From Cytobacillus oceanisediminis 2691 (GTDB lineage: Bacteria > Bacillota > Bacilli > Bacillales > Cytobacillaceae): a DNA stretch of 64,000 bases. Below, in pieces: positions 33,776 through 49,945 of this stretch (positions are counted from its first letter, which is position 1; every line of letters begins with the position of its first letter). The translations under genes were made by a program, and so were the position numbers. Location: the NCBI RefSeq assembly GCF_007678455.1, contig NZ_VEEP01000001.1, positions 672,795 to 736,794 on the forward strand, in the 5' to 3' direction. The notes beneath the pieces were generated by a model, which was given only the letters and a program-made list of their open reading frames with translations, made no database searches and was not told the origin of the DNA.

Positions 33776-34573
33776 ATGAGAATTTTATTTGTAGGGGATG
33801 TTGTAGGTTCTCCAGGCAGGGATATGGTTACGGAATACCTGCCAAAGCTGAAGGGGAAATTTCGTCCGACTGTTACGATCATAAATGGTGAGAATGCAGC
33901 GAGCGGTAAAGGGATTACCGAAAAGATTTACCGGCAGTTTCTCGAGCAGGGCGCACAGGCGGTCACTCTAGGAAACCACGCATGGGATAACCGTGATATT
34001 TTTGAGTTCATCGATGGAGCTAAATATCTGGTACGGCCTGCTAATTTCCCAGAAGAAGTTCCTGGCAAAGGGATTGTTTATTTAAAAATCAACCAGGAGG
34101 AACTGGCAATAATCAATTTGCAAGGCCGAACATTCTTGACGCCAATTGATTGCCCATTTAAAAAAGCCGATGAACTGATTGAAGAAGCTAGAAAGCGCAC
34201 ATCCCTCATATTCGTTGATTTCCATGCAGAAGCAACTAGCGAAAAGCAGGCAATGGGATGGTATCTTGATGGAAAAGTTTCCGCCGTGGTCGGTACGCAT
34301 ACTCATGTCCAAACTGCAGATGAGCGAATTTTGCCTTCTGGTACAGCATATCTGACCGATGTAGGCATGACCGGTCCATATGATGGCATTTTAGGAGTAG
34401 AAAAAGAAGCAGTTCTCAGAAGGTTCATTACAAGCCTGCCAACACGTTTCGAAGTAGCCAAGGAAGGAAGGAACCAGCTATCAGCAGTATTGATCGATTT
34501 GGATAAGAAAACTGGCAAAGCAGTGAAAATCCAGAAAATCCTTATCAATGAAGACCACCCTTTTTATGAATAA
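33776..34573 (+). CDS. ymdB: YmdB phosphodiesterase
   Basis: Calcineurin-like (2',3'-cyclic nucleotide) phosphodiesterase of 265 residues, which in B. subtilis affects biofilm and motility gene expression. Metal ligands are visible in FVGDVVGSPGR (D8), INGENAASGKG (E39, the residue whose change abolishes activity in B. subtilis), LGNHAWDNRD, FVDFHAEATSE and VVGTHTHVQTAD. Cytoplasmic. It follows rny as in B. subtilis and ends before a long stem-loop. Confidence 0.95.
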   Translation: MRILFVGDVVGSPGRDMVTEYLPKLKGKFRPTVTIINGENAASGKGITEKIYRQFLEQGAQAVTLGNHAWDNRDIFEFIDGAKYLVRPANFPEEVPGKGIVYLKINQEELAIINLQGRTFLTPIDCPFKKADELIEEARKRTSLIFVDFHAEATSEKQAMGWYLDGKVSAVVGTHTHVQTADERILPSGTAYLTDVGMTGPYDGILGVEKEAVLRRFITSLPTRFEVAKEGRNQLSAVLIDLDKKTGKAVKIQKILINEDHPFYE

Positions 34574-34594: not shown

Positions 34595-34636
34595 AGACTG
34601 CAGGAAAACTCATTCGAGTTTATCTGCAGTCTTTAC
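34595..34636 (+). terminator. Long stem-loop terminator of ymdB
   Basis: AGACTGCAG and CTGCAGTCT perfect outer arms and AAACTC/GAGTTT inner arms are followed by TTAC. Confidence 0.7.
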
Positions 34637-34683
34637 TTATGAGCTGAATTTGGTTATTTGGAGAAGGATTAAGTTGGATGAAA

Positions 34684-35690
34684 GATACCCTTGTGAAGAG
34701 GTAGGAGGGTGGATAAGGGTATCATTGCTGTCGAGAAATACCCTTTTGATGGGAAAAGAGTGCGCATAAGGGTATCATTCCTGTCGAGAAATACCCTTAT
34801 GACGAGAAAAGAGTGTGGATAAGGGTATCATTCTGCCTGAGAGATACCCTTATGAAGAGTGAAGAGTGCACATAAGGTCACCATTGCCTCCGAGAGACAC
34901 CCTTATGAAGAGTGAAGATTGCGCATAAGGTCACCATTCCGCCAGAGAGACACCCTTATGAAGAGTGAAGAGTCCACATAAGGGTATCATTCCTGTCGAG
35001 AGATACCCTTATGACGAGAAAAGAGTGTGGATAAGGGTATCATTCTGCCTGAGAGATACCCTTATGAAGAGTGAAGAGTGCACATAAGGTCACCATTGCC
35101 TCCGAGAGACACCCTTATGAAGAGTGAAGATTGCGCATAAGGTTACCATTCCGCCAGAGAGACACCCTTATGAAGAGCTAAGAGTCCACATAAGGGCATC
35201 ATTCCGCCAGAGAGACACCCTTATGAAGAGCTAAGAGTCCACATAAGGGCATCATTCCCCCAGAGAGACACCCTTATGAAGAGGCAAGAGAACGCATAAG
35301 GTCACCATTCCGCCAGAGAGATACCCTTATGAAGAGTGAAGATTGCGCATAAGGGCACCATTCCACCCGAGAGATACCCTTATGAAGAGTGAAGAGTCCA
35401 CATAAGGCCACCATTCCGCCAGAGAGACACCCTTATGAAGAGGCAAGAAAACGCATAAGGGCACCATTCCGTCAGAGAGACACCCTTAAGAAGAGGCAAG
35501 AGTGCACATAAGGGCACTATTCCGCCAGAGAGACACCCTTATGAAGAGGCAAGAGTCCACATAAGGGCATCATTCCGCCAGAGAGACACCCTTATGAAGA
35601 AGAAAGAGTCAACATAAGGGTACCATTGCCCCCGAGAGGTACCCTTATGAAGAGAAAAGAGTCCGCATAAGGTCACCATTCCGCCCGAAT
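34684..35690. repeat. 53-bp tandem array of inverted-repeat units (19 units)
   Basis: Intergenic array between ymdB and spoVS with no gene. The box ACCCTTAT (or a close variant) ends at 34694, 34747, 34800 and so on to 35648: 19 occurrences, all exactly 53 bases apart. Each unit has left arm ATAAGG-rich and right arm ACCCTTAT, followed by a conserved GAAGAG. In several units the arms pair completely (ATAAGGGTATC with GATACCCTTAT); in the last the pair becomes ATAAGGGTACC with GGTACCCTTAT, a compensatory change. A four-unit block is duplicated (34765-34964 and 34977-35176). Both halves of each unit are conserved, so this is not a CRISPR. Function unknown. Confidence 0.93.
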
Positions 35691-35910: not shown

Positions 35911-36171
35911 ATGGAGATATTAAAAGTTTCAGCAAAATCTAATCCTAATTCTGTAGCTGGTGCGCTTGCTGGAGTACTGCGCGAAAGAGGGGGCGCAGAA
36001 ATTCAGGCAATTGGGGCGGGTGCATTAAATCAGGCCGTTAAGGCAGTAGCGATCGCAAGAGGGTTCGTAGCACCCAGCGGCGTTGATTTAATTTGCATCC
36101 CGGCATTTACTGATATCCTGATTGATGGCGAAGAGCGGACAGCCATTAAGTTGATTGTTGAACCCCGATAA
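35911..36171 (+). CDS. spoVS: Stage V sporulation protein S
   Basis: Small Alba-like-fold regulator of 86 residues needed for late spore coat and heat-resistance stages in B. subtilis. Nearly the whole sequence is diagnostic (MEILKVSAKSNPNSVAGALA, AVKAVAIARGF). The start at 35911 with AAGGAGGAG upstream is preferred over 35860. A weak sigma-H-like arrangement (AAGGTCAT at 35804 and GAAT at 35828) lies upstream, consistent with known sigma-H control but not convincing alone. Confidence 0.96.
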   Translation: MEILKVSAKSNPNSVAGALAGVLRERGGAEIQAIGAGALNQAVKAVAIARGFVAPSGVDLICIPAFTDILIDGEERTAIKLIVEPR

Positions 36172-49311: not shown

Positions 49312-49945
49312 TCTCGGACAAAACCTAGGCATAATTAGCTGGAAATGTCTGAAGTAGGTCCATGTTCGGTCAAGACTTATGCATCACCAGCTGAAAATGT
49401 CTGAAGTGGGGTCGTGTTCGGACAAAAGCCTGGCGTCAGCAGCTATAAATGTCCGAAGTGGGGTAGTCTTCGGACAAAAGTCCGGCGTTAGCAACTCGAA
49501 ATGTCAGAAGTAGGTCCATGTTCGGACAAAACTCAGGCATCAGCAGCTGGAAATGTCTGAAGTAGGTCCATGTTCGGACAAAACTCAGGCATCACCAGCT
49601 GGAAATGTCTGAAGTGGGGTCGTGTTCGGACAAAAGCCTGGCGTCAGCAGCTGGTAATGTCTGAAGGAGGGTCGTGTTCGGACAAAAGCCTGGCTTCAGA
49701 ACCTCGAAATGTCTGAAATAGGAGTATGTTCGGACAAAACTCAGGCATCAGCAGCATGAAATGTCTGAAGTAGGAGTATGTTCGGACAAAACTCAGGCAT
49801 CAGCAGCTGGAAATGTCTGAAGTAGGACCATGTTCGGACAAAAGCCTGGCTTCAGCAACTCGAAATGTGTAAAGTAGGAGCGTGTTCAGACAACAAAACC
49901 ATGCGGTCAACATCCGAAAATGTCTGAACTATAATCGTGTTCAAA
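49312..49945. repeat. 52-bp tandem array of inverted-repeat units (12 units plus a degenerate end)
   Basis: TCGG/TCAG marks at 49314, 49366, 49418 and so on to 49886 are each exactly 52 bases apart. Each unit has a TTCGGACAAAA box and, about 25 bases on, AATGTCTGAAG; TTCGGACA and TGTCTGAA pair with one G-U (fully as TGTCCGAA in unit 3). A 13th, degenerate unit begins about 3 bases out of phase near 49941. Two sub-types differ in the middle (ACTCAGGCATCAGCAG and GCCTGGCGTCAGCAG). No gene is found here. The rest of the 839-base gap (49946-50021) shows nothing. Confidence 0.92.

Follow-up and report, generated by a model that had tools for sequence, protein, structure and literature searches.

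The intergenic region between ymdB and spoVS in the window (the whole 64,000-nucleotide stretch of DNA that was analysed) holds 19 tandem units with fixed inverted arms, a 16-nt loop of free sequence and a 21-nt linker, repeated at an exact period with A/T runs in helical phase, and arrays of this kind change in length by whole units. A cooperative protein-binding array had been one suggestion of the original prediction and, favored by the phase and the fixed arms, it remains the best reading, although we place it somewhat below an even chance: the array may be a helically phased DNA platform for a putative sequence-specific binding protein. The inverted half-sites, exactly five helical turns apart, would act as double-stranded DNA, and the putative protein would bind each arm pair on one face of the DNA; neighboring copies, assembled side by side five turns on, would wrap or bend the DNA, the presumed role being to control DNA topology locally, or the structure of the nucleoid, where transcription units end. 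The array itself is observed, and from its sequence we infer the binding protein, the cooperativity, the wrapping and the role. The arms seem to be read, their distance is maintained and everything else varies freely; the best explanation of this pattern would be a protein that recognized an arm pair and touched its neighbor five turns on. The features of the window on which this discussion draws are the following.

33776 to 34573, plus strand: ymdB, the upstream gene (Pfam YmdB)
34595 to 34640, plus strand: terminator-like hairpin AGACTGCAG...CTGCAGTCT with T-rich sequence after it, in the gap from ymdB to the array (by eye)
34684 to 35690, no strand assigned: 53-bp inverted-repeat array of family A, 19 units, intergenic between ymdB and spoVS
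34688 to 34740, no strand assigned: unit 1 of the array, with the degenerate arm CCCTTGTG
35642 to 35690, no strand assigned: last unit of the array, its linker passing into unique sequence (TRF end at 35685)
35911 to 36171, plus strand: spoVS, the downstream gene (Pfam SpoVS)
49314 to 49893, no strand assigned: second array of the window (family B), flanked by an NrfD-family gene and a NUDIX gene, with a period of 52 bp and the arms TTCGGACA / TGTCYGAA

As had been claimed, 19 CCCTT boxes (34688 to 35642) follow one another at exactly 53 bp in 18 of 18 spacings, and the usual unit is an inverted repeat made up of ACCCTTATG, a 16-nt loop, CATAAGGGT and a 21-nt linker. The longest run of boxes at this spacing in 1000 shuffles of the region was 1, which excludes a chance origin. 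The compensatory change read into the last unit did not survive inspection: the unit has GGTACCCTTATG ... CATAAGGTCACC, of which the outer GGT/ACC could pair and two inner positions do not.

The arms of family A are CCCTTATG-N16-CATAAGGG. A query of the host's own genome with the array DNA gave 24 matches, overlapping ones counted, and TRF on the fetched loci resolved 15 period-53 arrays at 14 loci, the window array included, with arms in common and with loops and linkers particular to each array. When the spacing was allowed to vary, a search for the exact arms in tandem gave matches in 15 of the 193 genomes of the taxonomic family, all of one genus, the host's (15 of its 21 genomes, against 0 of the 172 others). 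A scan of named genomes returned 89 stretches with the pattern; among the matches listed (80 of the 89), Mesobacillus or Bacillus sp. ISL strains account for most, others bear the title Chryseobacterium sp. ISL-80, and nine belong to unrelated records. From these matches the host is likely a Mesobacillus. The genus-type records show period 53 in 335 of 351 tandem matches, again with free spacing, and the 11 matches in the nine unrelated records have periods scattered from 36 to 61. The records titled Chryseobacterium sp. ISL-80, a Bacteroidota genus (L036, L042, L044, L064 and others), hold many Mesobacillus-type arrays, and one of them has an array consensus in common with genome G013 of the host's genus (L046, L127); the title is probably wrong. 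In another search, the matches listed include one apparently solitary hit (C221:43407), dispersed single palindromes being a feature of REP/BIME systems with RAYT.

In a set of 83 family A arrays, which includes one Lachnospiraceae record that is probably a chance match, the spacing is 53 in 514 of 563 cases. For the 522 cases with a single right arm enclosed by two left arms, the loop measures 16 in 510 and the linker 21 in 503, and no one-base indel in the loop or linker was found to be balanced in the other part. In the consensi of 80 arrays the arms hardly vary, conservation is intermediate at the linker edges (TAYSWTT / AAWSRTA), and the loop and the center of the linker are free, the arm conservation in both sets being partly built in because most loci were found through exact arms. 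As a check on this bias, the ymdB-spoVS locus was retrieved from 21 genomes through spoVS, independently of the arms. In 16 of them it contains one or more left arms (range 1 to 19), and among 11 of these genomes the differences between genomes amount to 1.5% in the core arm, 20.5% at the edges and 31.6% at free positions, under the mild condition that a unit was counted if it kept at least 11 of 16 arm letters. Comparison of two strains points the same way, with new states at 5 of 1200 core positions versus 29 of 2100 free ones (P 0.007).

The period is more constant than the sequence, as the original prediction had proposed in suggesting selection on phase, and we uphold both the observation and that reading of it; nor do units elsewhere vary freely in spacing. 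Among arrays of period 40-66 with at least 3.5 copies, TRF gave a period of 53 in 74 of 74 family A arrays, none of them shifted, and of 52 in 24 of 24 family B and 12 of 12 other arrays. Single spacings do deviate (28 of 542, range 49 to 57), and none of these deviations is fixed across an array. Had single-unit length variants spread in the manner of loop changes, a shifted period would be expected in about 8 of 73 arrays, by a rough estimate in which the arrays are not independent, and 0 were observed.

This constancy is accompanied by a helical phase of the A/T runs, which recur in the units every 10.6 bp. Among arrays with a TRF consensus as long as the period, the strongest A/T harmonic falls at one fifth of the period (about 10.5 bp) in 57 of 73 family A, 11 of 22 family B and 4 of 12 other arrays; the published families of other Bacillus species show this in 7 of 21 cases, and random genomic windows in 5%. 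The unit thus spans five turns, and the A/T run of every turn faces roughly the same side; in the other families the five-turn phase is a tendency. Even the variable loop of family A obeys the phase predicted from the rest of the unit (0 of 2000 permutations; 77 of the 80 consensi were used), and still does so when each loop cluster is represented by a single array (n = 12). In a wedge model, static curvature is not raised in family A (52.1 vs 48.2 in shuffled sequence), and the phase would therefore have to act through bendability; in family B it is somewhat raised (75.8 vs 51.7, median z 1.7).

Family B, whose unit consists of TTCGGACA, 25 nt, TGTCCGAA and 11 nt, is spread more widely. Its pattern, with spacing free, was found in 74 of the 193 genomes of the taxonomic family, covering 13 of 25 genera. 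A sample of 150 genomes from the order gave 10 with the pattern, which thus occurs in six families, the host's own included and one by a single match. Three genomes of the genus that are without family A carry 52-bp arrays with about seven other arm pairs (TRF, 400 kb sampled; grouped by eye). An exact inverted repeat beyond that of shuffled units occurs in 19 of 22 arrays of family B, in 5 of 12 others and in 9 of the 21 published families, so that not every family has clear arms. The existence of many arm families side by side (A, B and the seven or so others), hardly readable by one protein, speaks against the binding reading. A wider form of the binding model, which we consider rather unlikely, would have an order-wide factor that reads TTCGGACA/TGTCCGAA-type arm pairs on satellite arrays and organizes the chromosome at a five-turn pitch, with lineage families such as CCCTTATG/CATAAGGG of Mesobacillus diverged from it or parallel to it; the loop would be irrelevant and the length decisive. 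One genome, G018 (L174-L181), has nine 52-bp TRF arrays of several arm families in 200 kb sampled; it is without the exact tandem family A pattern and keeps two or three decayed family A units at ymdB-spoVS.

That the arrays are not coding was confirmed for family A, where a stop-free strand occurs in 0 of 73 consensus units. In family B, 13 of 22 arrays are overlapped by a long open frame (L024, L026, L028, L032, L033, L147, L150, L153, L156-L160), and 10 of 22 units have a stop-free strand versus 2.9 expected; as 52 is not a multiple of 3, a frame across such an array would pass through all three phases.

The position of the arrays relative to genes was compared with that of other gaps, gene strands being those predicted by simple open-frame calling. 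Clear neighbors exist for 72 of the 107 arrays, and these were used, leaving out 17 that overlap a predicted frame and 18 without a usable neighbor. These 72 lie between 43 codirectional, 24 convergent and 5 divergent gene pairs, as compared with 139, 30 and 43 among 212 background gaps of at least 50 bp (400 kb, three relatives), so that convergent positions are enriched (P 0.0008) and divergent ones depleted (P 0.010); against gaps of at least 300 bp the values are P 0.045 and P 0.035. The median distance from array to gene is 78 bp on the side of a 3' end and 178 bp on the side of a 5' end. The arrays avoid divergent promoters, and most of them are found downstream of genes. A polarity is also seen in family A arrays with codirectional neighbors, their loops on the transcript strand being purine-rich in 25 cases, pyrimidine-rich in 7 and equal in 1, and their linkers oriented with transcription in 16 cases to 4. 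No loop purine bias relative to replication direction was seen in the host's own genome (7 purine-rich, 6 pyrimidine-rich, 1 equal), with that direction assumed from dnaA, which lies at the record start, and from a terminus taken as opposite.

The main rival to the binding platform is a self-perpetuating satellite without a job in the cell, propagated by unequal recombination, whose arms would be needed by a putative copying or seeding enzyme. The way in which the arrays change between strains speaks for such a model. In a second strain, where the flanks of 20 arrays (12 or 13 family A loci, the rest family B) were located, the flank-to-flank length at 19 of 20 loci differs by a whole number of units to within 2 bp, the difference being zero at three, as compared by hand from flank coordinates with a few ends extrapolated, and at eight loci including spoVS, 63 of 100 units of the second strain are exact copies or two-piece mosaics of units from the host genome of the window. 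Higher-order periods of four units agree with this. The family B array of the window has one of 208 bp by TRF and the window array one of 212 bp (4 x 53) besides the period of 53 (17.5 copies); the latter, together with a peak of unit identity at a lag of four units (0.857 vs 0.831 for neighbors), indicates that the window array also grew in four-unit blocks. The patchy distribution of the families and a clean empty site at one locus can be counted on the same side. Arrays are dispensable locus by locus, which weighs against the binding reading: at ymdB-spoVS, 5 of the 21 genomes have no unit and five hold only one to three. For the same reason, that single loci gain, shrink or lose arrays as the genome retains many, the role would not be the regulation of single genes.

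A satellite whose copying machinery needs both the arms and the length would explain much of this pattern; we nevertheless judge a mere satellite to be somewhat unlikely, in view of how well the loci are kept. All 20 leave room for an array in the second strain (the 7 that were read each contain one), and 17 of 20 do so in a second species, judged by lengths only, the others being the clean empty site, a site with two decayed units and one whose flank was not found. Furthermore, unrelated arm families all settle at 52-53 bp, no transposase is linked to the arrays (two array-rich genomes, G006 and G015, are without a Y1_Tnp match), two viral contigs carry the family B pattern and one that of family A, and the window array has no plasmid match; on these last grounds a phage or plasmid origin was also rejected. 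At the clean empty site (L184 compared with L015) the flanks abut without a clear target duplication.

A structured RNA, in which the array would be transcribed and its hairpins would serve as small RNAs, sponges or terminators, appears improbable to us. Four two-unit stretches, taken from two places on both strands, do fold better than shuffles (z -2.2 to -3.0), the arrays lie mostly 3' of genes, and the 52-nt repeats of B. coagulans are present in RNA-seq according to the sections of PMC8625621 considered here. The pairing evidence itself is divided. For 514 family A units, with 4112 arm cells each for loop and linker, both partners have changed and kept their pairing in 2 cells across the loop and in 4 across the linker, and 2 further cells across the loop have changed in both partners and are unpaired. 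These six paired double changes stand against one-sided changes in 270 cells across the loop and 259 across the linker; 191 of the 270 destroy the pair. Of eight flank pairs compared with shuffled partners, one is higher by about 2 sd, whereas two fall short by 2 to 3.5 sd. Relative to re-paired halves, array-level symmetry is more frequent at linker positions 34, 36 and 40 and less frequent at 33 and 37; the pair 37/49 is anti-complementary (symmetric in 23 of 76 versus 38.3 expected) and 33/53 falls below expectation. On the transcript strand G:U cells outnumber A.C cells by 53 to 35, though by array the count is 14 to 15. Pairing is thus not consistently held, covariation being mixed rather than absent. 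The arm changes, which had been expected to be compensatory, are largely not so, selection on the fold is not clearly supported, and compensatory pairing is not borne out as the driver. In addition, the Rfam models had no match at the gathering threshold in the whole 64-kb window, a terminator-like hairpin already stands 5' of the array, with a stem resembling it visible at ymdB-spoVS in several relatives, and RNA does not require a period of five turns. We do not claim position 37/49 as obligate unlike half-sites, as the strand asymmetry of the free positions, which are A- and purine-rich on the transcript strand, would explain it equally.

The possibility of an array of gyrase sites like BIME-2 of E. 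coli, in which phased A/T would wrap on the gyrase tail domains and transcription supercoils would be removed, we consider more doubtful still. The gyrase wrapping motif shares with the arrays a 10-11-bp G+C periodicity over about 50 bp (in family A, with a tendency elsewhere), the downstream and convergent positions would suit such a role, and by analogy gyrase is an attractive candidate for the source of the phase. It differs in that the arrays have fixed arms and the cleavage core G-N-A-N-G-N-N-C-N-T-N-C is not enriched in them: matches at five or six of six letters number 13 versus 14.1 expected in family A, 5 versus 4.7 in family B and 0 versus 2.0 in the others. To our knowledge, gyrase is not known to read fixed arms. 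In the parts of the gyrase reports considered here, the E. coli motif has 47-bp flanks with a 10.75-bp GC periodicity and cleavage is enriched in BIME-2 (PMC6379681), and a Bacillus gyrase likewise prefers GC at 10-11 bp (PMC12324340). Gyrase is described there as lacking any one recognition sequence, whereas the arrays have their arms. BIME-2 or REP arrays are similarly intergenic, with palindromic units in variable number, and those described here are distinct from them as direct tandem arrays of constant length, with another sequence, in another phylum and with no required Y1 transposase. A Y1 (RAYT-type) transposase was rejected as the driver, its presence not tracking the arrays (G006 and G015 being the exceptions already named); the host's own genome has one Y1_Tnp match. 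A CRISPR array shares the regular spacing and the constant parts around a variable one, but the loops recur within an array and are inherited by locus, with free positions deviating by 14% within and 60% between arrays, and the earlier exclusion of CRISPR therefore stands.

The class of repeat to which these arrays belong is already known, including from species of the host's likely genus. Subirana and Messeguer (2021, PMC8161180) published constant-size 52-nt tandem repeats of Bacillus, whose function the sections of the report considered here leave open; there they have a period of 51-53 with several families per genome, contain short signals and their reverse, and are not coding. The present arrays agree with that description, with 19 copies of constant length (at least four being the published minimum), families A and B in both the window and the genome, and the short sequence and its reverse CCCTTATG / CATAAGGG in the unit. 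Two of the published families (oceanisediminis and alkalitelluris) have TTCGGAC arms, and B. selenatarsenatis, B. boroniphilus and B. subterraneus, which share many 52-nt repeats in that report, are Mesobacillus in the scan of named genomes. The same sections describe neither the arm geometry in these species nor a covariation test or an arm family spread over the order, and they relate helical phase to the 20-21-nt class only and not to the 52-nt class. What is added here is the retention of the arms with the rest free at an orthologous locus, the five-turn phase, the fixed period, the inconsistent compensatory covariation, the avoidance of divergent promoters, the change in length by whole units between strains and an arm pair that recurs in several families of the order; literature searches found no earlier report of a five-turn phase or of order-wide arms, which is not proof of their absence. 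A published enigma, the constant 52-nt Bacillus repeat, is thereby made testable as a five-turn unit with constrained arms and all else free. Should a binding protein be found, it would represent a new kind of chromosome-structuring system in Firmicutes; otherwise, the arrays would be a clean case of bacterial satellites maintained by their own copying rules.

Repeats of 20-21 nt (or 40-41 nt), about two helical turns, of the TTTTATTGGCGA / TTTTATAGCGA type were also observed in the host's genus, at the following places.

L164, 126 to 219: TTTTATTGGCGA / TTTTATAGCGA-type repeats
L168, 16286 to 16397: repeats of the same type
L107, 2482 to 2593: repeats of the same type
L049, 21 to 129: repeats of the same type
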